Assembly: GCF_041415945.1 (NCBI RefSeq)
Contig: NZ_JBGCUS010000001.1
Location: forward strand, 1,922,001 to 1,986,000
Length of the DNA: 64,000 nt
Direction of reading: 5' to 3'
Source of the DNA: Ancylobacter sp. IITR112
GTDB taxonomy: Bacteria; Pseudomonadota; Alphaproteobacteria; Rhizobiales; Xanthobacteraceae
Below, one piece after another: positions 4,961 through 43,556 of the stretch. A program made the position numbers and the translations under genes. How positions within the stretch are numbered: the first letter of the stretch is position 1; each line of letters starts with the position of its first letter. Under the pieces are notes generated by a model that worked only from the letters and a program-made list of their open reading frames with translations, did not search any database and was not told the DNA's origin.

Positions 4961-5179
4961 TCAAAGCCTATCGACTGCGGTCTCGTCCGGTGCCCGCCAC
5001 CGGGGCGGATCCGCGACCCAACGGTTGATGTCGGATTCCCGCCAACCGGCACCGTTGGTGCTGATCCTGAGCTGGGCAGGGAAGGTCCCCTCGGCGATCT
5101 TGCGATAGATGGTGGAGCGAGATAGGCCGGTGCGGGCAAGGACGGTCTTGAGGCGGATGATGCGCTCTGGTGTCTGCAT
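4961..5179 (-). CDS. AlpA-family regulator (excisionase-like)
   Basis: A 72-residue protein starting MQTPERIIRL. It carries a MerR-type winged helix-turn-helix (TGLSRSTIYRKIAEGTFP) followed by WRESDINRWV, the classic layout of AlpA/phage excisionase-like regulators. In P4-type elements AlpA activates integrase expression or aids excision. Here it lies between fic and the relaxase gene, transcribed towards fic. The frame extends upstream to 5296 in low-quality sequence, so the internal ATG at 5179 is preferred. Confidence 0.88.
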   Translation of the reverse strand: MQTPERIIRLKTVLARTGLSRSTIYRKIAEGTFPAQLRISTNGAGWRESDINRWVADPPRWRAPDETAVDRL

Positions 5180-5307
5180 GGCGGTGCTGCCTCCTGCTGG
5201 GTACGCCGATGGCGCCTGCTTCAGACAAGGCATGGAGCCGTCGACCGGCAAGAGGATGAACGGCGCCGGTGGGGCGTGGCGAAGCGGCGGCGGCACATCG
5301 GATGGGT

Positions 5308-27578: not shown

Positions 27579-29051
27579 TCAATGCACCGTGCAGACCATG
27601 CAAGGGTCGAAGGAGCGCACGATGTGCTGCACCGCCACCGGCGTCGTCTCGCCCTGGCGGACCGGCGCGCCGACCAGCGCCGCCTCCAGCGGGCCGGGCA
27701 TGCCGGCGCCATCGCGCGGCGAGAAATTCCAGGTGGTCGGCGCGATGATCTGATAGCCGGCGATGCGCCCGTTCTCCACCCGCAGCCAGTGGCCCAGCGC
27801 GCCGCGCGCCGCCTCCGTGAGCCCCGCCGCACGGCCATGGTTGGGGAAGCTGCCCTGCGCGCACCAGGGCGCGCCGGGGGTGAGTTCGTGCACCCAGCGC
27901 TCCATGGCGATGAGCGTGCGTGCGGTCTCCACCAGTCGCGCCACCACCCGGGCCAGCACGCTGCCGCCCTCGCGGAGCACGAGGTCGCGGATCAGTGGCT
28001 GACCGTCCACCATCTGCCGGGCGACGGCGCCGGTCTCGAACGGCAGGCCATTAAGGCGCGGCGCCTTGCACCAGCTATAGCCGGTCTCGTCCTCGGCATC
28101 CGGCAGGGTCGAGCCGTCAAAGGGATGGTGCGGGCGGGAGCGATGCTCCATCCGCGCATGTGTGTGGTCTTCCGCGATCGCCGCTGTATCCACCTCGCCC
28201 GGCCCGGCAGCGGTGAAGATGCCGCGCGCATAAAGCGGCATCTCCGCGCCGGGATAGGCGCCATAGCTGAGATAGCGGTCATAGGCACGGCCCATCCGGC
28301 CGAGGTCGAGATCGGCGGCGATGTCGAGGAAGAGGCGGAAATCACCTTCCGGGCCGGCGGCGCGCCAGCGGTCCAGCTCCTCGCGGGTGGAAAGTTCGGC
28401 CACGCGCTCCAGCTTGGCCCCGAACAATCCCTCTTCCAGCGCCCGCCGCACTGCGCCGAGCGTGGCGGCGAGGCGCACCTTGTCGCGCGCATCGGCGCCG
28501 CGCGTCACCCCGCCCGGCTGGATCGCCAGCGTGTGCGGCCAGCGCCCGGCGAGCAGGCCGAGCACATGCAGCAGCGTCGTGCGCGTCTCCAGCGCCTTGC
28601 GCACCGCGCTGCCCTGCGCCGCCTTGAAGCGCGCTTCGACACGCGGGAACCACGGCCGCTCCGCATAAAGGGCGCGGGCGAAGTCCGGCATGAAGAAGAC
28701 GTGGAAATGGGTGAGATGGTCGGCGACATTCTCGGTGGCGACGATGAGATTGGTCGCCACACGGCCATTGTCGGTCGGCACCAGCCCCTGCACCCCGGCG
28801 AGCGCCAGCGCGGCGGCGTGGGATTGCGACACCGAGCAGATGCCGCAGATGCGCGGCGCGATCACCAGCGCGTCGCGCGGATCGCGGCCTTCCAATATGC
28901 GCTCGAAGCCGCGGAACAGCGGCGACGACACGAAGGCCGCCTCCACCCGCCCCTGCGCCAGTTCCAGCCGCACTTCCAGGTCGCCCTCGACCCGGTTGAA
29001 CGGGCCGACGACGAGCCGCGTCGTGCCCTCGGATGCACCTGGGTCACTCAT
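27579..29051 (-). CDS. hupV: Regulatory (H2-sensing) hydrogenase large subunit HupV
   Basis: A 490-residue large subunit shorter than HupL. It has RICGICSVSQSHAAAL and ends exactly at DPCMVCTVH, with no C-terminal extension, so it needs no endopeptidase. This is the hallmark of HupV/HoxC sensors. It forms the cytoplasmic HupUV sensor that signals H2 to HupT. It overlaps hupU by four bases and is eight bases before hypF. Confidence 0.97.
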   Translation of the reverse strand: MSDPGASEGTTRLVVGPFNRVEGDLEVRLELAQGRVEAAFVSSPLFRGFERILEGRDPRDALVIAPRICGICSVSQSHAAALALAGVQGLVPTDNGRVATNLIVATENVADHLTHFHVFFMPDFARALYAERPWFPRVEARFKAAQGSAVRKALETRTTLLHVLGLLAGRWPHTLAIQPGGVTRGADARDKVRLAATLGAVRRALEEGLFGAKLERVAELSTREELDRWRAAGPEGDFRLFLDIAADLDLGRMGRAYDRYLSYGAYPGAEMPLYARGIFTAAGPGEVDTAAIAEDHTHARMEHRSRPHHPFDGSTLPDAEDETGYSWCKAPRLNGLPFETGAVARQMVDGQPLIRDLVLREGGSVLARVVARLVETARTLIAMERWVHELTPGAPWCAQGSFPNHGRAAGLTEAARGALGHWLRVENGRIAGYQIIAPTTWNFSPRDGAGMPGPLEAALVGAPVRQGETTPVAVQHIVRSFDPCMVCTVH

Positions 29052-30070
29052 CGGCGCTTGATGTCGCGCACGGCGGGCGGGCGCACCACATGGTCGCTGG
29101 TCGCGTTCAGCCGCAGCCGCTCCGGCGTCGCCGCCTTGGCGAGCGAGGACAGCGCCACGAACCAGGCTTTCGGCATGTCGGTGGGCAGGCCGACGGGGAA
29201 GCCGGCGATCTTCGGCGTCTCGACGAAGGCGTGGCCGGGCTCCTCGAATTCCGGCGCGGTGCAGTTGATGCAGGCATAGCCGCCGCGCGTGCAGGAGCCC
29301 TCCCCGTTCCACAGCCTTGTGTTGCAATCGGCATGCGCCTGCGTCCCGAGGCAGCCGAGATGCTCCATCATGCAGCCGAGATCGGACATCTTCTCCGCGC
29401 TGGCCTTGTACTCGTAATATTCATTGCGCGGGCAGCCATGATGCACAAGGTGGTCGGCATAGAAGCGCGGGCGGCGATACACATCGAGATCGTCCGCCCC
29501 CAGCAGCCCGGCCGCCAGCAGCATCAGCGTTTCCGTCACCCAGTTCGGGTGCGTCGGGCAGCCCGCGACATTGATGACCGGCAGGCCGGAACGGGAGCGG
29601 AAGGCCGCGCCCAGCGCCCCGCCCTCGCGGCGCCCGTCATATTGCAGGCCGCAGGCATCGGTGGGGTTGGCGCCGGCGGCGGTGACGCCGCCATAGGCGG
29701 CGCAAGTGCCGACCGCAACCACATTTTCCGCCACCGCCGCGAGCCGCCGCACCCAGTCGATGGTGGGCACACCCGTGCCGGCGAGGATGTGGAAGCGCCC
29801 GGTGTCCTTCGGCCCGCGCAGCATGGCGCCTTCCACGCAGAGCGCATCGAGCCGAAGCGTGCCGTCGAGCACCTGTTCGAACAGCGCCACCGCCTCCGCC
29901 CCGGTCTCCTCGGACAGGGTCGGGTGCCAGAGGAAGCGGATATTGGCGCTCTCCAGCGTGGTGGCGAGGTCCGGCGCCTCGGCGCACAGCATCGACATGG
30001 TGCAGCCGCCGCACCCGCCGGACTGGATCCACAGCACGTTGAAAGGCGTGGCTTCGGGGGGAACGGGCAC
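29048..30070 (-). CDS. hupU: Regulatory hydrogenase small subunit HupU
   Basis: A 340-residue small subunit lacking a Tat signal: it begins almost directly with VLWIQSGGCGGCTMSMLC, as in cytoplasmic HupU/HoxB sensors. Cluster ligands are visible in GTCAAYGG, CPTHPNW, HHGCPRNEYYEYKAS, LGCLGTQAHADCN and GYACINCTAPEFEE. It lies four bases after hupT. Confidence 0.96.
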   Translation of the reverse strand: MPVPPEATPFNVLWIQSGGCGGCTMSMLCAEAPDLATTLESANIRFLWHPTLSEETGAEAVALFEQVLDGTLRLDALCVEGAMLRGPKDTGRFHILAGTGVPTIDWVRRLAAVAENVVAVGTCAAYGGVTAAGANPTDACGLQYDGRREGGALGAAFRSRSGLPVINVAGCPTHPNWVTETLMLLAAGLLGADDLDVYRRPRFYADHLVHHGCPRNEYYEYKASAEKMSDLGCMMEHLGCLGTQAHADCNTRLWNGEGSCTRGGYACINCTAPEFEEPGHAFVETPKIAGFPVGLPTDMPKAWFVALSSLAKAATPERLRLNATSDHVVRPPAVRDIKRR

Positions 30071-30074
30071 CGGC

Positions 30075-31448
30075 TCAATCTCCGTTCGCGGCGCGGGCGG
30101 CCGGCAGGGTCAGCGTCATCACCGCTCCGCCCTCGGGGTGGTTGGCGGCTTCCAGCGTGCCGCCATGCTCCTGCACGATGCCATAGCTGATGGACAGGCC
30201 GAGCCCGGTGCCCTTGCCGATCGGCTTGGTGGTGAAGAACGGGTCGAAGATGCGCGAGGCGATCTCCGGCGCGATACCCGGCCCGGTGTCGCGCACGGCG
30301 AGCATGACCGCCTCTCCCGCCCGGCCGGTGATCTCCAGCCGCTGCACGCTCTGGCCCTCCATGGCGTCGAGCGCGTTCTGCACCAGATTCATCAGCACCT
30401 GATGGATATGGCCGGGATGGCCGATGACGGTGAGACCTTCGGCCATGTCGAAATGCGTCTCGATGGCCGGCCGCTGCGCCTTCGCCACCCAGTCCAACGC
30501 CGAGTGCACCAGCGGCGCCAGTTCGAAAGCCTCCCACGCCTCGCGCCGTTCCGAGGAGAAGTGGCGCAGATCGGCGACAATGTCGCGCACCCGCTCGGCG
30601 CCCTCCAGCATGCCGTCTAGCGTGCCGGCGATGTTGGCGAGCGTGGTGTCGATCTTCAGTTCCGCCTGCAGCCGGGCAAGCGCCGGGCCGCTCACCCCGC
30701 CATGCACCGCCTCAAGATAGGCGGTCAGCCGGGCACCATAGCGCTTCAGCGTGTGGGCATTGCCATAGACGAAGGAGATCGGGTTGTTCAGCTCATGCGC
30801 CACGCCGGCGACGAGACGGCCGAGCGAGGCCATCTTTTCGGAATGAACGAGCTGCTGCTGCGTCTGCTTCAGCCGCTCATGCGCGGCGGCAAGGTCGCTA
30901 TAGGCCTGGCGCAACTCGCCGATGGGCCGGCCGACCAGCACCATGCCGACCGATCGCCCGCGCGCATCGAATCGCACCGCGCCATTGACCGATACGGGCA
31001 GCGGGCCGGCGGGCGTGGCGAAGATGAGTTCGCGGTCGCTGATGCGCGCGCGCCGCTCAATAGCCGCACGCAGATCCTCGAAGCGGGTCGGGGATTCGGG
31101 TGCCAGAAGCTCGCGCAGCGGCCGCCGCTCCAATTCGCTCAGCGGCACCCCGAAAGCGCGCTCGGCGGCGCGGTTGACCTGCTCGATACGGCCGGAGGGG
31201 TCGCAGGCGATGAGCACGTCGGTCATCGACGACATCAGCCCGGCGATGAAGGTCTGCGCCTCCTCAAGCTCGGCGTTCTTCTGTTCGAGCGCGACCTGCT
31301 GGGCGACGAGCTCGGCATAGGTCTCGTCCATCTTGCGAATGACGGCGATCCAGGCATCGTCGGCCTGGCCGGCGAACGGGCTCAGCAGCTCCCCGGTCGG
31401 GAGAGCCTCCGGCGAGCCCTTCTGCGGCGCTTTCGGCGTGTGCGACAT
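30075..31448 (-). CDS. hupT: Sensor histidine kinase HupT/HoxJ
   Basis: A 457-residue soluble kinase. A coiled-coil (ELVAQQVALEQKNAELEEAQ) precedes a PAS domain (about 70-195). The dimerization/phosphoacceptor box is GVAHELNNPISFVYGNAHTL, and ATPase boxes follow: N (LVQNALDAM), G1 (DTGPGIAP), F (FDPFFTTKP) and G2 (GTGLGLS). In the HupTUV-HupR system it phosphorylates HupR without H2 to switch hup genes off, and is restrained by HupUV with H2. It is the first gene of the run. Confidence 0.94.
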   Translation of the reverse strand: MSHTPKAPQKGSPEALPTGELLSPFAGQADDAWIAVIRKMDETYAELVAQQVALEQKNAELEEAQTFIAGLMSSMTDVLIACDPSGRIEQVNRAAERAFGVPLSELERRPLRELLAPESPTRFEDLRAAIERRARISDRELIFATPAGPLPVSVNGAVRFDARGRSVGMVLVGRPIGELRQAYSDLAAAHERLKQTQQQLVHSEKMASLGRLVAGVAHELNNPISFVYGNAHTLKRYGARLTAYLEAVHGGVSGPALARLQAELKIDTTLANIAGTLDGMLEGAERVRDIVADLRHFSSERREAWEAFELAPLVHSALDWVAKAQRPAIETHFDMAEGLTVIGHPGHIHQVLMNLVQNALDAMEGQSVQRLEITGRAGEAVMLAVRDTGPGIAPEIASRIFDPFFTTKPIGKGTGLGLSISYGIVQEHGGTLEAANHPEGGAVMTLTLPAARAANGD

Positions 31449-32315: not shown

Positions 32316-33349
32316 GCCGGCCGCCGCGCGCGATAGAGGATAAGGGCGAAGGCCGGCGCGCCCACCAGCGCGGTGACGATGCCAATCGGCAGGATCTGCT
32401 GCGGCACCAAGATGCGCGAGAGCACATCGGCGAGGATCATGAACACCGCGCCGATGACGAGGCAGGCCGGCAGCAGCCGGGCATGGCCGGGGCCGACGAG
32501 GAAGCGCGCGGCATGCGGAATGACCAGCCCGACAAAGCCGACCGTGCCGACGATCGCCACCATGGTGGCGGTGAGCAGCGCGGTGGTCGCCAGCAGCACC
32601 AGCCGCACCCGCGTCACATGGATGCCGAGCGAGGCCGCCGCATCGGCGCCGAAGGCGAAGGCATCCAGCGCCTTGGCGTGGACCATGCACACAAGGAAGC
32701 CGAGCAGCGCCACTGGTGCCGCCACCGCGAGGTCGGGCCAGCGCACGCCGCCGAAATTGCCCAGCAGCCAGAACATCACGCCGCGCGCCTGTTCAGCGCT
32801 CGCCATGGTGGTGACGATGGTGGCGGTGGCCGCGTTGAACAATTGCGAGCCGGCGACTCCGGCGAGAATCACCCGGTCGCTGGCCCCGCCCGCCCCGGCG
32901 GCGAGCAGGCCGACCAGCACCAGCGCCGCCACCGAGCCGAGAAATGCCCCGCCGGAAAGCCCCAGCGTCGCCCCGCCAAAGCCGAGGATCATCACCGCCA
33001 CCGCGCCCGTCGAGGCGCCGGCGGAAACGCCGAGAATATACGGCTCCGCCAGCGGGTTGCGCAGCAGCGCCTGCAGGATGGCGCCGGAAAGCGCCAACGC
33101 GCCACCGCACAAGGCCGCCATCAGCGCCCGGCTCAGCCGGTACTCGAAGATCACCCCCTGCTGGATGGCGCTGACGGGATAACCAAGACCGAACAGCCCG
33201 TTGCCGAGCGCGCGGAAGGCGACGCCGAGCGGGATCGGCATCTCGCCCACCGTCACTGCCAGCGCGATGGCGACGACCAGCGCGGCGAGGGAAAGGCCGG
33301 CGAGGGCAAGCCGCGCCGGCCAGTTCGGCCCGATGGCGATGTGGCTCAA
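32312..33349 (-). CDS. btuC: ABC transporter permease, FecCD/BtuC family
   Basis: A 345-residue permease with about ten hydrophobic helices. Motifs typical of FecCD permeases include YRLSRALMAALCGGALALSG, NPLAEPYILGVSAGASTGAV and TVGFVGLVIPHAARFLVGPG. The start is probably TTG at 33349, overlapping the binding-protein stop (TTGA). No ATG is well placed. Confidence 0.9.
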   Translation of the reverse strand: MSHIAIGPNWPARLALAGLSLAALVVAIALAVTVGEMPIPLGVAFRALGNGLFGLGYPVSAIQQGVIFEYRLSRALMAALCGGALALSGAILQALLRNPLAEPYILGVSAGASTGAVAVMILGFGGATLGLSGGAFLGSVAALVLVGLLAAGAGGASDRVILAGVAGSQLFNAATATIVTTMASAEQARGVMFWLLGNFGGVRWPDLAVAAPVALLGFLVCMVHAKALDAFAFGADAAASLGIHVTRVRLVLLATTALLTATMVAIVGTVGFVGLVIPHAARFLVGPGHARLLPACLVIGAVFMILADVLSRILVPQQILPIGIVTALVGAPAFALILYRARRPA

Positions 33350-34392
33350 TGGACCAGACCGAAGCCCTGCACCGCCGTGGCGATGGCCTCCAGCCCGTCC
33401 ACCGTGTCCATGCCCGGCCGCGTGGCGGCGACATCGACGATGACGATGCGCCCGTTCTTCACGGCGGAGAGCTGGCTGGCCACCGGATCGGTCTTGAGGA
33501 AGGCGAGCTTGGCGTCGATGTCGTCGGCGGGAAAGCGGCGGCGGTCCATCTTCACCAGAACCAGCACGTCGGGATCGTTGGCGGCGATGGTCTCCCACCC
33601 CACCAGCGGCCATTCCTCCTGCGTGGTGATGATGTTGCGGATGCCGAGCTGTTCCATCACATAGGCCGGCACGCCGTTCTTGCCGGCGAGGAAGGCGTCG
33701 CCCTTGATCTCCTTGCTGGAGAACCACAGCGCCATCGACACGTCCTTGCCGTTCAGTGTCGCGACGGTGCGGGCGGCTTCCGCCTCGCGCGCCTTCAGGC
33801 GGGCGACCAGCGCCTCGGCGCGGTCCGACACGTCGAAGATGGCGCCATATTCAAGGATGTTCCGGTAGAGAAGTTCGGTCGAATACATCTGGGTACGCAC
33901 CCCGTCGCCGGCGCCGCTATTATCCTTGCCGACGCAGTCGGTGGGCGAGACATAGACCGGCACCTTCACCGCGTCGAAGCGCTCGCGCTTGCCGACGATG
34001 CCATTGGGCCCGATGTGCCACTCATACATGGCGACGACGAGGTCCGGCTCCTGCCCGACCACCGCCTCGAAGCTCGGGTCATTGTCGGCGAGCCGCTTCA
34101 CCCCGGCGTTCACCGTCTCGTAAGGCTTGGCCACGGGGCCGAACCACAGCGCGCTGGCGACCACCCGGTCGCCGAGGCCGAGCGCATAGAGGATTTCCGT
34201 CTGCGCCTGGCCGATGCTCACCACCCGCTTGGGCGCGTGGTCGATCACCACCTTGGAACCGCAATTCTCAAGGGTGAGCGGATAGGTCGTGCCGGCGAGG
34301 GCCTCGGTCAGGCCCGCGCTCGCGAGCAGGCCAAGCGCCACGGCGAGGCCTTGAGCCGAGCGACGGAGAAGATGAGAGGTCGTGTTGAGCAT
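33346..34392 (-). CDS. btuF: ABC transporter periplasmic binding protein, B12-riboswitch controlled
   Basis: A 348-residue class III binding protein (BtuF/FhuD fold). Signal peptide: MLNTTSHLLRRSAQGLAVAL up to about ALAG (residue 34). The mature part contains APKRVVSIGQAQTEILYALG and PDLVVAMYEWH, the first lobe of the fold. C-terminal lobe: PDVLVLVKMDRRR. ATG at 34392 has AGGAAG upstream; a GTG two codons earlier is less likely. The role in corrinoid uptake is inferred from the riboswitch. Confidence 0.88.
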   Translation of the reverse strand: MLNTTSHLLRRSAQGLAVALGLLASAGLTEALAGTTYPLTLENCGSKVVIDHAPKRVVSIGQAQTEILYALGLGDRVVASALWFGPVAKPYETVNAGVKRLADNDPSFEAVVGQEPDLVVAMYEWHIGPNGIVGKRERFDAVKVPVYVSPTDCVGKDNSGAGDGVRTQMYSTELLYRNILEYGAIFDVSDRAEALVARLKAREAEAARTVATLNGKDVSMALWFSSKEIKGDAFLAGKNGVPAYVMEQLGIRNIITTQEEWPLVGWETIAANDPDVLVLVKMDRRRFPADDIDAKLAFLKTDPVASQLSAVKNGRIVIVDVAATRPGMDTVDGLEAIATAVQGFGLVH

Positions 34393-34509
34393 TGTCACCG
34401 CTTCCTGAACAGGAAGACGGGAAGCGTAAAGGAAACCACCCGGGTGGGAGCGAATCGCACTCCCGCGCGGCCGGCAACCTTCGGAGCACCCCGCCCGAAA
34501 GATTGTGTG

Positions 34510-34712
34510 CGATCAGGGCAGGTCTCCTGGCTCGCGGGTCGACGCTGGCTCCGCCCGGCCTTCCCGGCGCGCGGCCGAGGCCGGTGACGCCAGTGGACGA
34601 TGGGCAGAGGGCTCGCCGCTTACAGTTGCGGGGGCAGCCTCGGCTTCGGCGCGGGGCGCCTCACCGAATTCCCTCTTAGCTTCGGGCAGGGCGCCCGAAG
34701 AACCGTGATCGG
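34510..34712 (-). ncRNA. Cobalamin riboswitch
   Basis: On the minus strand it has the B12-box AGCCAGGAGACCTGCC (34517-34532) at its 3' end, CTGCCCCCGCAACTGTAAGC in the core (about 34614-34634) and the 5' element GGAATTCGGTG with paired arms GCCCTGCCCGAAGC. This is the consensus adenosylcobalamin aptamer. Between it and btuF a hairpin (34446-34464) followed by a weak T-rich stretch (GTTTCCTTT) may act as the expression platform. Repression of btuFCD by cobalamin is expected. Confidence 0.95.
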
Positions 34713-35034
34713 CGGCGACCGTAACGGCTGGGGCTGCCCCGTCAAGAGCGCCGACCGGCACCAGCCTTTCGCCTTGAATGATACATTGTATCGTTTAGCC
34801 GCACAAGAGTGAGGCGGTCGCTCCCCGCCTCTCGCAGGTCGCCCACGTGGTGGCGCAGGGGCGACCGGGCCGGCCGAAACTTGGCCGAGTGGCGATCTTG
34901 CCGGGCTCCGAGCGAAACATCATAGTCGATCGTGCAGATTCCCCCGTCGCCGGCAGCGACGGAGGGGAGCCTCCCTTCCAGTTCCAGACGGGCGCGGCGA
35001 TGGCGCCTCCGTCCTCTCCCCCAGGGGCCCGCCC
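34713..35034. other. Divergent control region between btuF riboswitch and the NCS2 permease
   Basis: No gene is supported. It must contain the promoter of the riboswitch leader (minus) and that of the permease gene (plus). An AT-rich patch at 34775-34800 (ATGATACATTGTATCG) includes a near-palindrome CGATACAATGTATC. A stem CCGTCGC/GCGACGG lies at 34944-34962. Confidence 0.5.
34941..34967 (+). other. Structured 5' leader hairpin of the NCS2 permease gene
   Basis: A perfect 7-bp stem CCGTCGC-CGGCA-GCGACGG, extended by CCC/GGG across a one-base bulge, about 70 bases before the ATG. It is followed by pyrimidine-rich sequence. It may be part of a regulatory leader but matches no riboswitch class that I know. 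Confidence 0.4.
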
Positions 35035-36741
35035 ATGCCGCGCAAGCCGACGAACATCATCTATTCGTCCCAGGAGAAGCCGCCGGCCGGCACCGTGCTC
35101 ATTCTCGGGGTCCAGCATGCGACGCTGGCCCTGCTGTTCATCGTCTACCCGCTTGTCGCGGCGGCGGAGGCCGGGCTGTCCTTCGACGACACCCAGCTCT
35201 TCATCACCAGTTGCATCATCTTCATGGGCATCGCGACGCTACTGGAATGCCTGCCGCGTTACGGCGCGGGCATGCTGCTGGTGCAGATTCCGAACATGGC
35301 GCACATGCCGCTGGCGGTGCAGTCGCTTGCCGCCGGCGGGCCGGCGCTTTATGCCGGCATGAGCCTCGTCGCCGCCGTGTCGCAACTGACGCTCTCCCGC
35401 TTCATGGGCGCGCTCCGGGCGGTGTTTCCGCCGGAGGTGTGCGGCGTCGCCGTGACCATGCTCGGCGTGGCGCTGGCTGATCCGGCGCTGCGGCGCGTCT
35501 TCGGCATTTCAGGCGAGATCACACCGGATCTCGACATGCGCTATGCCATTGTCAGCTCGGTGACGCTGGTCATCATCATCGGCCTCGCCATCTTCTCGCG
35601 CGGCATGCTGCGCCTGTTCGCCGTGGCGATCGGCGCGGCGGTGGGCTGGGGGCTGGCGGCCTATCTAGGCGTGGCGCCGGAGCCCAATGCCAGCTTCGCC
35701 ACCCTGCCCTATATCGACCTGCCGCATCTCGGCCTGCCGGGCCTCAGCTTCTTTTCCTGGGCGCTCATTCCGGCGGCGGTCATCACCGGCGTGCTCTCGG
35801 CGGTGGACATGGTCGGCACCGTCGTGTCCATGCAGCGCATGGACGATGCCGACTGGCGCCGCGCCGATCTCGATCAGGCCGGCCGCGCCATTCAGGCGAA
35901 CTGCATCGGCGATATCGGCACGGCGGTGACCGGCGGCTTCGCCAGCGCCTCCTCCTCGGCCGCCGTCGGCGTCGCCTTCGCCACCGGCACGACGGCGTGG
36001 CGGGTCGGCGCCGTCTCCGGCATCCTCATCATCCTTTCCGCCTTCTCGCCCCGCCTCATCGGCGTGCTGACCATCATCCCCTCCCCGGTCATCGGCGCCA
36101 TTCTCATCTATGCCGCCGCCTTCCTCACCGTGGCGGGCATGGAACTGATCCTGTCGCGCCGGCTGAGCGACCGGCGCATCTTCACCGTGGGCCTCGCCAT
36201 CCTCACCGGCCTCGCCGTGGCCATCCTTCCCGGCCTCGTCACCCTCACCCCGGAATGGGCGCAGCCCATCGTCGAATCGCCGCTTTCCATCGCCACCGCC
36301 GTCGCCATCGTGCTGAACCTGGTGTTCCGCATCGGCATCCGTCAGGAAGCCTCGCGCGAGGTGACGGCGGACGAGAACTCCTTCACCGTCGCCACCGAGT
36401 TCCTGGAGCATCAGGGCGATTTGTGGGGCGCGCGCCGCGATGTCATCGCCCTCGCGATCCCCGTCGTGGCGGAAGGTGTGGAAATGCTGCTCGACACCGG
36501 GGTCGCCCCCGGCAAGCTGGAGGTCCGGGCACATTTCGACGAGGAGAATTTCGATGTGGCCCTGCTTTATGACGGCGAGCCCATCACCATTCCCGACCAC
36601 CGCCCCTCGCCGGAAGACCTGCTGGGCGACGCCCATGCGGTGGCCCGCTTCGTCGGTTACATGCTGAGCAAGCGCGCCGACAAGCTGGTGCTCGGCACCG
36701 ATGGCGCCCGCCAGAAGCTCACCCTGCGCTTCGAGCACTGA
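35035..36741 (+). CDS. NCS2 (SLC23) nucleobase permease with C-terminal ATPase-like domain
   Basis: A 568-residue protein. Residues 1-430 form the NCS2 transporter with about 12-14 hydrophobic segments; the helix-1 HATLALLFIVYPLV and helix-10 AGGFASASSSAAV-type region resemble xanthine/uracil permeases, though the family signature is weakly kept. Residues 437-568 are an added soluble domain: ALAIPVVAEGVEMLLDTGVA, KLEVRAHFDEENFDVALLYD and a late helix VARFVGYMLSKRADKL. This follows the order of anti-sigma-type HATPase domains, as in the protein at 37270, but lacks the N- and G-box residues, so it is probably catalytically dead. STAS and ATPase genes follow. The domain call is inference. Confidence 0.85.
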   Translation: MPRKPTNIIYSSQEKPPAGTVLILGVQHATLALLFIVYPLVAAAEAGLSFDDTQLFITSCIIFMGIATLLECLPRYGAGMLLVQIPNMAHMPLAVQSLAAGGPALYAGMSLVAAVSQLTLSRFMGALRAVFPPEVCGVAVTMLGVALADPALRRVFGISGEITPDLDMRYAIVSSVTLVIIIGLAIFSRGMLRLFAVAIGAAVGWGLAAYLGVAPEPNASFATLPYIDLPHLGLPGLSFFSWALIPAAVITGVLSAVDMVGTVVSMQRMDDADWRRADLDQAGRAIQANCIGDIGTAVTGGFASASSSAAVGVAFATGTTAWRVGAVSGILIILSAFSPRLIGVLTIIPSPVIGAILIYAAAFLTVAGMELILSRRLSDRRIFTVGLAILTGLAVAILPGLVTLTPEWAQPIVESPLSIATAVAIVLNLVFRIGIRQEASREVTADENSFTVATEFLEHQGDLWGARRDVIALAIPVVAEGVEMLLDTGVAPGKLEVRAHFDEENFDVALLYDGEPITIPDHRPSPEDLLGDAHAVARFVGYMLSKRADKLVLGTDGARQKLTLRFEH

Positions 36742-36907: not shown

Positions 36908-37240
36908 TTGATACATATCGACCGCATCGTCGAGGGCGCCATCCTCGTCACCGCCGTCAAGGGACGGCTGGACAGCAGTTCCTCGCCCAAGCTGGAGGAG
37001 TTCCTCGCCGACGCCCCGGCGGACGGAACGGTGCTGCTCGATTTCGCCGAGCTCACCTATATCAGCTCCGCCGGCCTGCGCGTGGTGCTGAAGGCGACCA
37101 AGCTGATCCGCGGCGCCGGCGGCACGCTGGCGGTGTGCGGCCTGATCCCGCAGGTGCATGAGGTGTTCGATGTCAGCGGGTTCTCCTCGCTGATCCCGAT
37201 CCATCCCAGCCGCGAGGCCGCGCTCGCCACACTGGGCTGA
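36908..37240 (+). CDS. STAS-domain anti-sigma factor antagonist
   Basis: A 110-residue SpoIIAA/RsbV-like protein. The phosphorylatable Ser region is LDFAELTYISSAGLRVVLKA, with S at about residue 55-56 in the DxSxxGxR-type loop (here ISSAGLR). The start is TTG at 36908, preceded by GGGAG; no ATG fits. It is followed 29 bases later by an RsbW-like ATPase, its expected kinase and partner. When dephosphorylated by the PP2C protein at 42121 it should sequester that partner. Confidence 0.88.
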   Translation: MIHIDRIVEGAILVTAVKGRLDSSSSPKLEEFLADAPADGTVLLDFAELTYISSAGLRVVLKATKLIRGAGGTLAVCGLIPQVHEVFDVSGFSSLIPIHPSREAALATLG

Positions 37241-37269: not shown

Positions 37270-37689
37270 ATGACCGACAGGGGGCTCGATCTGCGCCTGC
37301 CCAACAAGCTGGGCGAGCTCGACGCGCTCAGCACACGGATCGAAGGCTTTGCGCATGAGGCCGGCGTGCCGCCGACCCCGGCCTATCGGCTGCAATTGGC
37401 GATCGACGAGTTCTTCAACAATGCCGTCGATTACGGCTATCCCGACGGCCGCCCCGGCGAGATCGCCATCGAGGTGCGGCGCAGCGGCGATACGCTGCTT
37501 CTGGTCTTCAGTGACGATGGCGACCCGTTCGATCCCTTCGCCGCCCCGCCGCCCGATCTCGACGGCACGCTGGAGGCGCGGCGTATCGGCGGGCTGGGGG
37601 TGCATCTCGTGCGAACCCTGTGCGACAGCTTCGCCTATGCGCGCGAGAACGGGCGCAATGTGAAGCGCGTCACCTTCCTGCTCGGCTGA
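37270..37689 (+). CDS. RsbW/SpoIIAB-like ATPase (anti-sigma kinase)
   Basis: A 139-residue HATPase_c_2 protein. The N-box is RLQLAIDEFFNNAVDYGYPD (two Asn), the G1-box FSDDGDPFDP and the G2-like segment RIGGLGVHLVRTLCD. It should bind and phosphorylate the STAS protein encoded just upstream. Its downstream target (sigma factor or other) is not visible here. The gene converges on the Na/Pi cotransporter gene with a 12-base gap. Confidence 0.9.
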   Translation: MTDRGLDLRLPNKLGELDALSTRIEGFAHEAGVPPTPAYRLQLAIDEFFNNAVDYGYPDGRPGEIAIEVRRSGDTLLLVFSDDGDPFDPFAAPPPDLDGTLEARRIGGLGVHLVRTLCDSFAYARENGRNVKRVTFLLG

Positions 37690-37701: not shown

Positions 37702-39294
37702 CTAGGACGCGCTATGGGCGCGGCGCACCTGCGTCAGGCCATTGACCAGCCGGCGCGACAGCCAGACGATACGCTCGAACAGCACGGTCATGCGGAACAG
37801 CGCGTTCTGCTGCTCGGCGGCAAGCTCGCCCTCGGCGGACAGCTTCTGGCGCAGATCCTCCATCAGCCGGTCGCGATGGCCGAGCAGCGCCAACACCAAT
37901 TCCGGCTCTTCGGCACCAAGGCTCTCGGCATGGTCGGCCACCGCGCCGAGCAGCAGGTGCAGCGCCTCGTTCAGCCGCTGCGCGGTCGGCACGGCGCGCG
38001 CGACGGCGGCCTCGTGGGCATAGTCCGCCAAGGCTTCGTGCAGGGCGCCGGCATTATTGGCGGCGTCGTCCAGCAGCAGCGCCACCGCGACCTGGTCGCG
38101 GGCGAGCGGCGCGTCGAGGAGCGCGGCGAGATAGGCGCGGATGGCCTCGGTCAGGCTCATGCCGGCGGCCCGCAGCACGGTAGCGGACGGGGCGGCGAGA
38201 TCGCCTTCCTCGCGCACATGCTCGATCATCTGCGGCAGCCGGGCGCTGAGCCGCGCCACTTCGCGGGTGGCGAGGTCGAGCGCCGCCTCGGTGTCGCCCA
38301 GCGCCTCGCGCAGCAGGAAGGCGGGCTGGGACAGCGTCTCAACCGCGTTCATCGGCAGCAACCGCGCCAGGACCTGCCGGGTCGGCGCTTCCAGCACCGC
38401 CGAGCCGAGCGAGCCGACGATCTGCGCCGCGAGGAAGATCAGCGCGAGAATGGCGCCGACTTCGCCATCCGCCGGCAGCAACGCCGCCATCGCCTCCGGG
38501 CGCAGGGCGGCGAAGACGGCGAGCCCCACCAGCAGCAGCGAACCGACGGCCTTCTGCACCACCTGAAGCGCGAACACCACGCGGCCGGGCCGCGTCTCGC
38601 CGGGGATCAGCACGGCATTATTGATAACGGCCGCCGCATTGGCACCGGCGATCAGCGGCAGCGCGGTGCCGAATTCGAGCAGCCCGCCGGCCACCGCCGC
38701 CACCGCCAGCGCCGCCGCGACCGAGGAAGACTGCGCCGCCAGCGAGAAGCCGGCGCCGATGGCCGCCAGCAGAAACGGATTCTCGACCGCCAGTTCCCAC
38801 AGCGGATGCCCCAGCAGCGCTTCGCGCATCGGCGCGACGGCGATGGACACCAGATGCATGCCGAACAGCAGCAGGCCGGCGCCAAGCGCGGCTTCCAGCG
38901 CGTTGCGCATGCGGTCGCCGCGCACCAGCCGGAAATAGGTGATGAAGCCGACAATGCCGATGACGATGCCGGCGCCGGTGGAGGTGTCGACGGCGACGAT
39001 CAGCGGCAGCAGCGAGGTGCCGACATTCGACCAGCTCGGCGCCAGCAGCGCCGGCCCGTCGGTCAGCACGCCGCCGCGCACGAAGGACACGACGATCCAC
39101 GACACGGCAGTGGAGCTCTGGGTGATCATCCCCGCCAGCGTGCCGCTGATGGCGGCGCTGACATTGCCGCGCAGCGCCCGGGCGAAGGCGGCGCGGGTGC
39201 GCCGGCCGACCAGCGGCACGAGATTAGCGGAAAGCCCTCGCACGCCGATGAAGAAAAGCCCCAGCCCGCTGAACAGAAGCGCGATGGTCGCCAT
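37702..39294 (-). CDS. Na/Pi cotransporter family protein
   Basis: A 530-residue NptA/PNaS-type transporter. The two repeated QSST motifs are visible: MITQSSTAVSW and SLAAQSSSVAAAL, within the duplicated Na/Pi cotransporter domains (residues 1-300). The C-terminal 200 residues form a helical PhoU-like domain (LPQMIEHVREEGDL onwards). It would import phosphate with sodium. It lies between the two halves of the signalling block but has no clear link to it. Confidence 0.92.
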   Translation of the reverse strand: MATIALLFSGLGLFFIGVRGLSANLVPLVGRRTRAAFARALRGNVSAAISGTLAGMITQSSTAVSWIVVSFVRGGVLTDGPALLAPSWSNVGTSLLPLIVAVDTSTGAGIVIGIVGFITYFRLVRGDRMRNALEAALGAGLLLFGMHLVSIAVAPMREALLGHPLWELAVENPFLLAAIGAGFSLAAQSSSVAAALAVAAVAGGLLEFGTALPLIAGANAAAVINNAVLIPGETRPGRVVFALQVVQKAVGSLLLVGLAVFAALRPEAMAALLPADGEVGAILALIFLAAQIVGSLGSAVLEAPTRQVLARLLPMNAVETLSQPAFLLREALGDTEAALDLATREVARLSARLPQMIEHVREEGDLAAPSATVLRAAGMSLTEAIRAYLAALLDAPLARDQVAVALLLDDAANNAGALHEALADYAHEAAVARAVPTAQRLNEALHLLLGAVADHAESLGAEEPELVLALLGHRDRLMEDLRQKLSAEGELAAEQQNALFRMTVLFERIVWLSRRLVNGLTQVRRAHSAS

Positions 39295-39430: not shown

Positions 39431-39802
39431 TCAGCCCGGCAGGCCCAGCCGGGCGCGGATCTTCTCCAGCAGGCGGGGCAGCTCCACCGGCTTGGTGTCG
39501 AAATCATCGCATCCCGCCGCCATCGCCTGCTCCCGGTCCGACGCCATGGCGTGGGCGGTGAGCGCGATGACGGGGATGGCCGCCGTTTCCGGATTGGCCT
39601 TGACCTGCCGCGTCGCCTCCCAGCCGTCGAGCACTGGCAGGCTCATGTCCATCAGGATAAGCGCCGGCTTCTCCGACAGGGCGAGGTCGACGCCTTCCTG
39701 CCCGTTGACCGCGATCAGCACCTCGAAGCCGTTGCGCGACAGGCGCCGGGAGAGCATGTCGCGGTTCATCTCATTGTCCTCGACGAGGAGAATTTTCGTC
39801 AT
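39431..39802 (-). CDS. Single-domain response regulator (CheY/DivK-like)
   Basis: A 123-residue receiver. Acidic pocket VEDNEMNRD, phosphoacceptor Asp in LILMDMSLPVLDGWEATR, Thr in IALTAHAM and Lys in FDTKPVELP. It has no output domain and may serve as the diffusible partner of the hybrid kinase encoded nine bases upstream. Resembles receivers associated with hybrid kinases. Confidence 0.94.
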   Translation of the reverse strand: MTKILLVEDNEMNRDMLSRRLSRNGFEVLIAVNGQEGVDLALSEKPALILMDMSLPVLDGWEATRQVKANPETAAIPVIALTAHAMASDREQAMAAGCDDFDTKPVELPRLLEKIRARLGLPG

Positions 39803-39811
39803 CGCGCCCTC

Positions 39812-42124
39812 TCAATGGCCGTGGCTGGCGATGGTGCCGAGCGCGGCGCCCAGCGAGCCGATCGGCTGCGCGCCCTTGTTGAGGATCAGCAGCGTGTTAC
39901 GGGCCAGAAACTCTCGCTCGTCCTCGGTGAGTTCCTTGGCGGTGAGCACGACAATGGGCAGTTCGGCATAGGCCGGCTCAGCCCGCACCCGGGTCAGGAA
40001 GGCGAAGCCGTCCATTTTCGGCATCATCAGATCGAGCAGCACCAGCGCCGGCAGCGGGTTGGCGACGAGCCATTCCAGCGCCTCCTCGCCATTGGTGGCC
40101 TCGGCCACCGGCAGGCCGGCGCCCTCGATGGTGGCGCGCATGATGGCGCGCACCTCGGCGTCGTCATCGACCACAAGCACCACGCCATCGGCATTGCCCG
40201 GCGCGAATTTATGCACCAGTGCGATAAGCCGCTGCCGGTCGATCGGCTTGGTCATGTATTCCGAGGCGCCGAGCGAATAGCCGAGATTGCGGTCGTCGAC
40301 GATGGTCAGCATGATGACCGGAATATGCGCCAGCGCCGGCTCCGACTTCATGATGCCGAGCACCGACCAGCCGTCGATCTTCGGCATCATCACGTCGAGC
40401 GTGACGATATCGGGCGGCTCCTTGCGCATGATGTTGAGCGCCTCCACCCCGTCGCGGGCGTGGCGCAGCACATAGCCTTCCTTGCCGAGCGTGGCGGTTA
40501 GCACGTCATGCACCGCCGGGTCGTCATCGACCACCAGCACGGTGATGGCGCCGGGCGTCGTCGGCGCGCCGGGATCGACGATCTCGTCCTCGTCGCCATG
40601 CGCGCCGGCCAGATGCGCCTCGACTGGCAGCTCGATGGTGAAGGTGGACCCCTGTCCCGGCTCGCTCGCCACCGAAATGGTGCCGCCGAGCATGGCGGCG
40701 AAATGCTTGGTGATGGTGAGCCCGAGGCCGGTGCCGCCGAAATTGCGCGTGGTGGAGGAATCCGCCTGGGTGAAGGCCTGGAACAGCCGGCCCATCTGTT
40801 CCTCGCTCATGCCGATGCCGCTGTCGCGGACATCGAAGCGCACCGCCGCGCTGCCATCGGGCAGGGTGTCGCGGGCGATGGCCAGCGTCACCGTGCCGTC
40901 CTTGGTGAACTTGGCGGCGTTGCTGAGCAGGTTGATCAGGCTCTGCTTGAGCTTGGTGACATCGGTGCGCAGCGTGCCGATATCGACGGGGCAGTCGATG
41001 ACGAAGCGGTTGGCGTTCTTCTGCATCATCGGCCCGACAATGGTCTTCACCTCCTCGACCATGCGGGTCAGGAACACCTGTTCCAGATAGACATCCATCC
41101 GACCCGCCTCGATCTTGGACAGGTCGAGAATGTCGTTGATGAGGCCGAGCAGGTGCTTGCCGGCCGCCTGGATCTTGTCGAGATCGGCGACCATGGCGCT
41201 GTCGCCGGCGTCCGCCGCGTCCTCGGAGAGGATTTCGCTGTAGCCGATGATGGCGTTGAGCGGGGTGCGCAGCTCATGGCTCATATTGGCGAGGAAGGCG
41301 GACTTCACCCGGCTCGCCGATTCCGCCGCCTCCTTGGCCTCGCGGAGCTGCTGCTCCATGCGCACGCGGTCGCTGATATCGACGAAGGTGGCGATGACCG
41401 CCGGCTTGCCGCGGAAGTCCAGCCGCTCATGCGAAACCATGGTGCAGATGGTCGAGCCGTCAGTGTGGGGCAGGTTGAACTCCTGCCGCTCGCTGGTCGG
41501 CGTGGCGAGGATGTCTTCCAGCTCCCGCCCCGGCGCGGGATCGGCGAACAGGTCGCGCAGCTTCAGGCCGACCAGCGTGTCCGCCTCGCGGCCGATCAGC
41601 CGGCCGAGGCAGCCATTGCAGTGGCGGATCACCCGCTCTGCCACATCCATGATGACAAGGCCGATCGGCGCGGCGGCGTCGATGGCACGCAGTTGCTCCT
41701 CATCCTCGCGCAGCTTCATCTCCGCCAGCTTGCGCTCGGTGATGTCGGTGTAGATGGCGATGAAGCCGCCGCCCGGCACCGGATCGCGCCGCACTTCGAG
41801 AATGGTGCCGTCGGGCCGCGTGCGCTCGAAGCGGTGGGGCTTCTCCAGTTGCGCCAGACGCTGGGCCAGCGCGGTCTCGATATCGACCTCGCCGAATTCG
41901 CCGCGGGCGCCGAGATAACGGATATAGTCGGAGAAGGTGTGCTCGGTGCCGAGAAATTCCGGCGGCATGTCGAGATAGTCGACAAAAAGCTGGTTCCAGG
42001 TCACCAGCCTGTGCCGGTCGTCATACATGGCGACGCCCTGCGACATGTTCTCCAGCGTCGCCCGCAGCAGCGTCGCCTCGCTCACCCACTCGGCCTCAGT
42101 CATCCCCTTCCCCTCGTTCTTCAT
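39812..42124 (-). CDS. Hybrid sensor histidine kinase, PAS-PAS-HK-REC-REC
   Basis: A 770-residue cytoplasmic kinase. PAS domains lie at about 10-130 (MSQGVAMYDDRHRLVTWNQL, a PAS_7-type sensor) and 140-255. HisKA: NMSHELRTPLNAIIGYSEIL (phospho-His). ATPase boxes include NLLSNAAKFT, DSGIGMSEEQ and GTGLGLTITKHF. Two receivers follow: LVVDDDPAVHDVL with Asp in TLDVMMPKIDG, and LVVDDDAEVRAIM with Asp in LLDLMMPKMDG. It overlaps the phosphatase gene by four bases (ATGA), so the two are cotranslated and probably signal to one another. Confidence 0.95.
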   Translation of the reverse strand: MKNEGKGMTEAEWVSEATLLRATLENMSQGVAMYDDRHRLVTWNQLFVDYLDMPPEFLGTEHTFSDYIRYLGARGEFGEVDIETALAQRLAQLEKPHRFERTRPDGTILEVRRDPVPGGGFIAIYTDITERKLAEMKLREDEEQLRAIDAAAPIGLVIMDVAERVIRHCNGCLGRLIGREADTLVGLKLRDLFADPAPGRELEDILATPTSERQEFNLPHTDGSTICTMVSHERLDFRGKPAVIATFVDISDRVRMEQQLREAKEAAESASRVKSAFLANMSHELRTPLNAIIGYSEILSEDAADAGDSAMVADLDKIQAAGKHLLGLINDILDLSKIEAGRMDVYLEQVFLTRMVEEVKTIVGPMMQKNANRFVIDCPVDIGTLRTDVTKLKQSLINLLSNAAKFTKDGTVTLAIARDTLPDGSAAVRFDVRDSGIGMSEEQMGRLFQAFTQADSSTTRNFGGTGLGLTITKHFAAMLGGTISVASEPGQGSTFTIELPVEAHLAGAHGDEDEIVDPGAPTTPGAITVLVVDDDPAVHDVLTATLGKEGYVLRHARDGVEALNIMRKEPPDIVTLDVMMPKIDGWSVLGIMKSEPALAHIPVIMLTIVDDRNLGYSLGASEYMTKPIDRQRLIALVHKFAPGNADGVVLVVDDDAEVRAIMRATIEGAGLPVAEATNGEEALEWLVANPLPALVLLDLMMPKMDGFAFLTRVRAEPAYAELPIVVLTAKELTEDEREFLARNTLLILNKGAQPIGSLGAALGTIASHGH

Positions 42125-43299
42125 GGCGCCCCCGGCGGATCAAGCGTGAGCAGCAGCGCGGCCATGTCGTCAAAGGCCGGCAGTCCCGCCTCGAAGGCCC
42201 GCACGGCGGCGGCCAGATGCGGCAGCGGCGACGGCTCATGGCCAAGCGCGGCGAGGAAATCTCCCACCCGCTCCTCACCATAGAGCGCGCCGGCATGATC
42301 ATGCGCTTCGGTGAGGCCGTCCGTCACCACCATCAGCCGCTCCCCGGCGCCGAGCGGCACGGTGGCGGCGCGGTAGGGGAATTCTTCCATCACCCCCAGC
42401 GCCGGCCCGCCGGCGGCGGTCAGCCGCGTCACCGTGCCGTCGCGCGCGCGCAGATAGGGCGGCACATGGCCGGCCCGCACATAGGTCAGCGTCCCGGCCG
42501 GCGCGTCGAGCACCGCCAGCAGCAGGGTGACGAACATGCAGGAGGCGTTGCCCCGCGCCAGCGCGTCATTCACCAGCCCCGCCGCCTGCGCCGGATCAGC
42601 GAACAGTTCGCCCGCATCGGGCCGGGTGCCGAGGGCGCGGAACATGGAATGGGTGCGCGCCATCATCAGCGCCGCGCCGGCGCCCTTGTCGGAAACGTCG
42701 CCGATGATCGCGACCATCCGCCCCTCGCCGAGGGGAAAATAGTCGACGAGGTCGCCTCCCACTTCCTTCGCCGGCTCCAGCAGCACGTCGATGGTGAGGT
42801 TCCGCCCGCCGAACGGCCCGGCGAAAGGCGGCGGCACGAGGGCGAGTTGCAGCGTACGCGCCTCGGTGAGTTCGGCCTGCTTGCGCCTCAGCTCGTCGCG
42901 GGTGCGGTCGCGCAGCGCCTTCTTCTCCAGCGTGGCGAGCACCCGGGCACGCAGCAGCGTCGGATTGAACGGCTTGAAGATGAAATCGTCGGCGCCAAGC
43001 TCGATGCAGCGCACCACCGGCTCGATCTCGTTCAGCGCCGAAACGACAATGACCGGAAGATCATTGATCCGCCCGTCGGTCCGCAGCCGGTCGAGTACGC
43101 CGAAGCCGTCGAGTTCCGGCATCATGATGTCGAGCAGGACGAGATCGTAGGGCTTCTGGTCGATGGCGGCGAGCGCCTCGACACCATTGGCGGCCTCGTC
43201 AATATGGGAGAAGCCGAGGCGCTTGAGCCGGCGCAGCAGCAGATCGCGGTTCTCGGCGACATCGTCGACCACCAGAATCGCCGCGTTCTGGTCCGTCAT
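42121..43299 (-). CDS. REC-PP2C phosphatase (RsbU-type response regulator)
   Basis: A 392-residue protein. Residues 1-125: receiver with Asp in LVLLDIMMPELDGFGVLD. A short coiled linker (LRDRTRDELRRKQAELTEAR) leads to a SpoIIE/PP2C domain with the metal-binding EVGGDLVDYFPLG, IGDVSDKGAGAAL and VTDGLTEAHD. It should dephosphorylate a STAS antagonist; the one at 36908 is the obvious candidate. First gene of a phosphatase-kinase-receiver operon. Start at 43299 chosen because the receiver begins four residues later. Confidence 0.94.
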   Translation of the reverse strand: MTDQNAAILVVDDVAENRDLLLRRLKRLGFSHIDEAANGVEALAAIDQKPYDLVLLDIMMPELDGFGVLDRLRTDGRINDLPVIVVSALNEIEPVVRCIELGADDFIFKPFNPTLLRARVLATLEKKALRDRTRDELRRKQAELTEARTLQLALVPPPFAGPFGGRNLTIDVLLEPAKEVGGDLVDYFPLGEGRMVAIIGDVSDKGAGAALMMARTHSMFRALGTRPDAGELFADPAQAAGLVNDALARGNASCMFVTLLLAVLDAPAGTLTYVRAGHVPPYLRARDGTVTRLTAAGGPALGVMEEFPYRAATVPLGAGERLMVVTDGLTEAHDHAGALYGEERVGDFLAALGHEPSPLPHLAAAVRAFEAGLPAFDDMAALLLTLDPPGAP

Positions 43300-43556
43300 G
43301 AGTGCGCTTCCACCGACTTGCTTGATTGCCCCGCCCGGACGCGGGCAAGCGCGGACTATCCACACAATGGGCGGGCTTAGCAACGCTGCCCAAGCGGCCA
43401 TCCGGCCCTAAAAGCTGCATGTTTTCAGTCTCACGCAGCGTAACCCCTATTGGGGTATGGCATGGGCGCGAGGCGTTGCGCGGATGCTGGCGCGAAACCA
43501 TGGCGCAGCCGCCCGCGCCGCCCTACATAGACCTGAGGGAGGCGCGACAGACAGCG

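Follow-up and report, generated by a model that had tools for sequence, protein, structure and literature searches.

The permease at the centre of this study lies in a window of 64,000 nucleotides from Ancylobacter sp. IITR112 and combines an NCS2/SLC23 membrane part with a C-terminal tail that reads as a degenerate RsbW-type domain. A SpoIIE-type phosphatase, a STAS protein and an RsbW-type kinase are encoded together in the same window (Table 1). We interpret the locus as a partner switch with the permease as its output, in which the STAS protein would shuttle between two partners, the active kinase and the ATP-dead tail, according to its phosphorylation state, and we give this interpretation slightly better than an even chance. 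The evidence comes from profile comparisons, from the residues lost and kept in the tail, and from the genes found beside tailed permeases in other genomes.

Table 1. Features of the permease locus (positions in the window) and of the transporter-kinase fusions in three other regions (positions in the region named)
Feature	Position	Strand	Basis
NCS2/SLC23 permease ORF	35035-36741	+	568 aa, translation free of internal stops
Permease membrane part, residues 1-436	35035-36342	+	Xan_ur_permease match, alignment to UraA structures
Degenerate RsbW-type (HATPase_c_2-like) domain, residues 437-568, and stop codon	36343-36741	+	hhalign with controls
Stand-alone STAS protein (RsbV/SpoIIAA-like), YISSAG motif	36908-37240	+	STAS 5.4e-16, STAS_2 3.1e-15
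RsbW-like HATPase_c_2 protein, predicted STAS kinase	37270-37689	+	HATPase_c_2 5.8e-23; N-box, G1 and G2 intact
Na/Pi-cotransporter, convergent with the kinase gene	37702-39294	-	Na_Pi_cotrans 3.4e-27
Single-domain response regulator	39431-39802	-	Response_reg 3.5e-24
PAS-PAS hybrid histidine kinase with two receivers, presumed input	39812-42124	-	Pfam
Response regulator-SpoIIE-type (PP2C, RsbU-like) phosphatase, presumed STAS phosphatase	42121-43401	-	SpoIIE 3.1e-42, Response_reg 4.4e-28
ABC-permease-like-HATPase_c_2 fusion, L078	~5000-6160	+	by eye
ABC-permease-like-HATPase_c_2 fusion, L080	13783-14937	-	HEQRo-type ABC permease domain 4.3e-4, below curated cut-off
ABC-permease-like-HATPase_c_2 fusion, L091	15191-16345	-	HEQRo-type ABC permease domain 6.4e-6, below curated cut-off

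Taken alone, the tail of the window permease had no family match in Pfam or NCBIfam. For a more sensitive comparison by hhalign, a profile of 44 tails was used, comprising 40 from outside Ancylobacter, the window tail and 3 of the 15 Ancylobacter-type loci (the other 12 were dropped as near-copies). Against a profile of 10 RsbW-like domains it gave a probability of 97.2%, a score of 65.6 and an E-value of 3.4e-11 (single template) over 129 collinear columns, whereas the best of 100 column shuffles scored 16.1, the reversed profile 16.4, and the unrelated STAS, PP2C and carbonic anhydrase profiles at most 12.7. The probability was 97.0% with the 40 non-Ancylobacter tails only, and 96.2% against 6 RsbW-like domains, after exclusion of the membrane-fused ones and that of the window. 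These values bear out the proposal of the first-pass annotation that the tail shares the fold order of an RsbW-like protein encoded about 500 bp downstream; the start codon of that gene lies 529 bp past the last base of the permease. Homology to HATPase_c_2 proteins of the RsbW/SpoIIAB type over the whole domain is well supported by the profiles, and a GHKL fold would accordingly be expected.

It is highly improbable that the tail is unrelated to RsbW and resembles it only through a general alpha/beta pattern. Such a coincidence would agree with the failure of the curated models on the window tail and with an early comparison of only 12 tails to the window kinase alone, which reached 47% and was later replaced by the 44-tail profile. 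It would also agree with a sequence search of the PDB by the tail profile, the sole output of which were HPr chains (E ≥0.4, about 50 residues), a likeness that we took as chance. However, the deeper profile far exceeds its shuffled, reversed and unrelated counterparts across the whole domain, and retrieval works in both directions: a search with the tail profile retrieves genuine RsbW-like proteins, from two genomes and one Ancylobacter locus, and Pfam HATPase_c_2 is the best match for three of ten diverse tails (E 0.016-0.084, all below the cut-off). A further likeness, of the tails to the NCS2 core (hhalign 86%, 12 columns), was rejected, because both alignments contain the same last transmembrane residues.

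Residues for nucleotide binding, which had been described as absent from the window tail, are lost throughout the 44 tails. None of the 44 tails has Asn at the N-box Asn position or Asp at the G1 Asp position (Y 27, W 9, H 5, F 2, P 1), and the three G2 glycine positions are occupied by Gly in 6, 8 and 1 of 44. The G1 Gly is kept in 43 tails and the N-box Glu position holds E in 31, Q in 12 and L in one; conserved among the tails are also Trp464 (39/44), Asp502 (37/44) and Asp549 (41/44). In the adjacent kinase, N-box, G1 and G2 are all intact in the alignment. Judged by these positions, the tail is a degenerate RsbW relative and not a kinase, and its ATP binding has probably been lost. Since the ATP site is lost across the whole sample and yet the domain has been retained, the tail looks like an adaptor.

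The membrane part is a clear member of the NCS2/SLC23 family, with a Pfam Xan_ur_permease match over residues 21-399 (8.9e-38; 130.4 bits against a curated cut-off of 27), and the protein is 94% identical to the permease of A. polymorphus. With regard to the substrate, the match to NCBIfam pbuX (5.6e-50) is under the curated cut-off of that model, as are the matches to all NCBIfam equivalogs for named substrates with respect to their own cut-offs. The two acidic positions that bind the substrate in UraA correspond, in an alignment to UraA, to Asp258 and Ala309. Of the earlier designation as a nucleobase permease, the family assignment therefore stands, and "nucleobase" is to be read as a family label. 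In three other regions a beta-type carbonic anhydrase gene adjoins the tailed permease (L091, 10266-10976, minus strand, Pro_CA 1.2e-43; L097, 10040-10915, minus strand; L115, 7896-8612, plus strand). These neighbours may point to a small anion such as bicarbonate as permease substrate and, together with neighbouring binding proteins, at solutes that are perhaps other than nucleobases.

For the STAS gene of the window we assigned a plausible TTG start at 36908. The serine of its motif was present in all 31 STAS rows compared, four of which come from type VI secretion clusters and one from a region that has no tailed permease, while two represent the same gene twice; by alignment to SpoIIAA, this serine is the expected phosphorylation site. 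A scan of the window genome revealed one SpoIIE domain, which is that of the phosphatase in Table 1, and at least 16 HATPase_c_2 matches, the strongest of which (2.2e-22) adjoins the permease, followed by one in a longer frame at 4.1e-8. STAS_2 had two matches, the STAS gene at 36908 and a frame of 405 aa, and STAS (PF01740) had three, namely the same gene and frames of 529 and 405 aa. Thus the permease has within 7 kb the one SpoIIE-type phosphatase of the genome, the one short STAS frame that the scan revealed and, among the matches listed, the sole strong RsbW-type kinase. The visible partner switch of this genome accordingly sits at the permease locus. A SigB/F/G-type sigma factor (TIGR02980) over the cut-off was found in none of 10 STAS-linked genomes, the window genome included, and in 1 of 14 controls; judged by the SigB/F/G model alone, a sigma-controlling (SigB/SigF) switch has no target here.

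A scan for promoters and terminators gave chance-level results only. The Na/Pi-cotransporter gene has relatives in 14 of the 15 other Ancylobacter-type loci, none being found in L006. Separate from the permease finding, a cobalamin riboswitch (34500-34722, minus strand, 100 bits) is located ahead of a gene at 33346-34398 that reads like a periplasmic binding protein for vitamin B12-type uptake. Further away, at 27579-31448 on the minus strand, genes like those for the large and small subunits of a NiFe hydrogenase are followed by one for a PAS histidine kinase, a set that we take to resemble hydrogen-sensing ones.

Complete modules are also present beside tailed permeases of other genomes. In L103, genes for a hybrid kinase, a response regulator-SpoIIE phosphatase, an RsbW-like kinase, a STAS protein and the tailed permease follow each other in series on one strand, and relatives of the window's hybrid kinase adjoin tailed permeases both there and in L079. 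L078, L080 and L091 combine solute-binding proteins, a membrane-HATPase_c_2 protein, a SpoIIE-type phosphatase, a STAS protein and the tailed permease, and L100 has the permease with a Peripla_BP protein and a HAMP-SpoIIE-HATPase_c_2 protein. From another class, L115 comprises an RsbW-like kinase, a carbonic anhydrase, the tailed permease, a STAS protein, a Peripla_BP protein and a chemoreceptor-like protein. A Thiodictyon plasmid carries two tailed permeases, a tail-only fragment, a STAS protein, a binding protein, a SpoIIE phosphatase and a kinase frame; the tail-only permease fragment (L121, 6061-6585, plus strand) is placed immediately ahead of the STAS gene.

A second kind of transporter-kinase fusion was observed in L078, L080 and L091, where an ABC-permease-like membrane protein ends in a HATPase_c_2 domain with N-box and G2 kept (Table 1). 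As no ABC ATPase gene was recognised by eye beside the fusion in L091, this protein may be a receptor. STAS, RsbW-like kinase and SpoIIE-type phosphatase genes were also seen within type VI secretion clusters (L122 and L124 by eye, L123 as annotated, the phosphatase match not being found in L123), which is perhaps another partner switch with a non-sigma output.

How regularly the tail is accompanied by a STAS gene was assessed in 39 regions around non-Ancylobacter matches of the tail profile. Tailed permeases (40 in number) are contained in 37 of these, L096 and L114 having RsbW-like matches only. A STAS gene is located within about 400 bp of the tailed permease in 8 of the 37 regions (L078, L080, L084, L091, L097, L101, L103 and L115), and STAS and kinase genes follow the tailed permease downstream in all 16 Ancylobacter-type regions, the STAS gene again within about 400 bp. 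The fusion that the first-pass annotation proposed to look for is thus found next to STAS genes elsewhere, in favour of its interpretation, including one of three named plasmid records, STAS being absent from the annotated flanks of the other two. The models used for neighbours (STAS, kinase, phosphatase, carbonic anhydrase) were seeded from the same loci, with seed members matching by construction, and gene calls in the regions were simple, composition-based ones with false genes in places, e.g. in L115 (corrected). The adjacent STAS genes were confirmed through Pfam scans of the genomes, which put STAS linkage at 10 of 28 among the tailed genomes and at 7 of 19 among their genera.

Chance was rejected as an explanation of this linkage. 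With 103 STAS_2 matches across the 28 tailed genomes, chance adjacency amounts to about 0.002 per permease or about 0.08 in 37, kinship being ignored, as against eight observed. In 20 tail-less NCS2 loci, neither STAS nor kinase was found in the flanks (at most 1.5 kb), and a Pfam STAS_2 scan of the same 20 genomes had no match near the tail-less permeases. The comparison of 8/37 with 0/20 gives p = 0.04 (Fisher), where the control consists of the 20 best other NCS2 matches, from one order and one tree branch, and kinship is ignored. Of the 28 tailed genomes, 25 contain short frames (≤250 aa) with STAS_2 over the cut-off, compared with 3 of the 20 tail-less ones (Fisher 4e-7, kinship being ignored and the samples differing in it). 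On the permease tree, the region-level STAS label, which includes second permeases further from STAS in L091, L097 and L118, changes at least five times.

In the other 29 of the 37 regions a STAS neighbour was not found by the models used, and two tailed genomes (G261 and G253, with tails L107 and L113) have no short STAS_2 frame over the cut-off and no strong RsbW-type protein among the matches listed. Both observations count against a switch and speak for a purely structural or ligand-binding tail, which would aid dimerisation or folding of the permease or hold a small ligand, the linkage then reflecting co-regulation with a switch whose target is elsewhere. RsbW-type domains are known to dimerise, and 43 of 44 tails have an aromatic residue at the G1 Asp position, which could contribute to the lining of a remodelled pocket. 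We nevertheless consider such a role unlikely, given that the linkage recurs on the tree and in several gene orders, that the linked proteins are the very partners of the parent RsbW fold and that no SigB/F/G sigma factor over the cut-off offers itself.

The permease-tail fusion is an old proteobacterial subfamily and is not peculiar to the window. The whole tailed protein was found at 15 Ancylobacter-type loci (one from a Xanthobacteraceae bacterium), and in an order sample of 199 genomes matches reached into the tail (query end ≥521) in 10. The tail profile matched in 19 of 387 genomes of a class sample, one of which (G262) has an RsbW-like protein and no permease, and in 6 of 397 genomes of a phylum sample, four of them already within the class sample. 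Among 72,556 plasmid records, three carry a tailed permease: those of Candidatus Thiodictyon syntrophicum (Gammaproteobacteria), Pseudoroseomonas cervicalis and Azospirillum thermophilum. All three plasmid relatives are annotated merely as "solute carrier family 23 protein" and the window tail is missed by Pfam and NCBIfam, so that current annotation does not reveal the family. In a tree of 67 permease cores, whose root is arbitrary and whose tail-less set is narrow, one branch (100/100) separates the 47 tailed from the 20 tail-less proteins, and one fusion origin therefore suffices. L084, L086 and L092 have longer open frames (974-1152 aa) that could suggest larger fusions; inspection by eye attributed the extra length to read-back ahead of the true start.

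In the partner switch that we favour, the ATP-dead tail would have been retained as the place where the STAS protein encoded beside it docks. The RsbW-like kinase would phosphorylate the serine of the YISSAG motif and in this way keep the STAS protein off the permease. The hybrid kinase presumably drives the response regulator-PP2C phosphatase, which would dephosphorylate the STAS protein at 36908 and allow it to dock on the tail, and docking would alter transport activity or stability, in either direction. Phosphorylation of the STAS protein, its binding to the tail and the effect on transport are thus all proposed from gene content and homology. Against this proposal also count the 166 bp between the permease and STAS genes in the window, which make their co-transcription less certain, and the position of the phosphatase and hybrid kinase genes, on the opposite strand and beyond the Na/Pi-cotransporter gene.

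The same anatomy and linkage would be expected if the permease acted as a sensor (transceptor), its substrate deciding whether the tail holds or frees the STAS protein for the kinase and a further target. The solute-binding and chemoreceptor-like proteins beside tailed permeases do show that these loci sense solutes. However, sensing inputs are already there in the form of the hybrid kinase and the HAMP-phosphatase, and the neighbour clusters contain no conserved output gene apart from the set itself, so a permease with this role appears rather improbable to us.

Partner switches including those with non-sigma outputs, NCS2 permeases and STAS-bearing transporters are all known, and it is the transporter output of the present form that appears to be new. 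In the Bacillus partner switch, a phosphatase and a STAS protein work with an RsbW-type kinase acting on a sigma factor. The window locus resembles this system, known as RsbU-RsbV-RsbW or SpoIIE-SpoIIAA-SpoIIAB and discussed in a review (PMC8256260), in its SpoIIE-type phosphatase, its STAS protein with the motif serine and its intact RsbW-type kinase; it differs in a genome without a SigB/F/G sigma factor over the cut-off and in a second, ATP-site-dead RsbW-like domain on a membrane permease. According to the summaries of SiaABC-SiaD from Pseudomonas aeruginosa (PMC8457831, PMC7647112), that partner switch likewise consists of a PP2C phosphatase, a kinase and an anti-sigma-antagonist-like protein with an output that is not a sigma factor. 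There, the output is a diguanylate cyclase bound via its stalk, whereas here it is presumably a permease contacted via a dead kinase domain. SulP/SLC26 transporters, as outlined in the same review (PMC8256260), likewise have a cytoplasmic C-terminal domain that is half of a partner switch, but theirs is the STAS half; the window permease bears the RsbW half, with STAS as a separate protein. With UraA and xanthine-type NCS2 permeases the window protein shares the membrane family; the extra tail, the separate branch and the Asp258/Ala309 pair set it apart. No description of an NCS2-RsbW fusion or of such a transporter output was found in the titles and abstract openings returned by full-text searches of open-licence literature, in agreement with the first-pass annotation, which knew of no described example.

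On a broader scale, there is an even chance, in our estimation, that the tailed permeases represent an old and as yet undescribed class of switch in Proteobacteria, in which the dead RsbW domain of an SLC23 permease and an active kinase compete for one STAS protein and a PP2C phosphatase sets the balance. The active kinase would in some loci be fused to an ABC-permease-like membrane protein, the phosphatase would be driven by sensors, and transport would be switched post-translationally. If this is true, the class is the mirror image of SulP/SLC26. The reason for the STAS domain on those transporters is a long-standing question, and a related family with the opposite half of the switch and a free STAS protein would mean that gating of transporters by STAS and RsbW could be tested with just two soluble proteins. 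Partner switching, which is mainly known from gene control, may here act directly on a transporter and would then reach beyond gene expression and enzymes into membrane transport.
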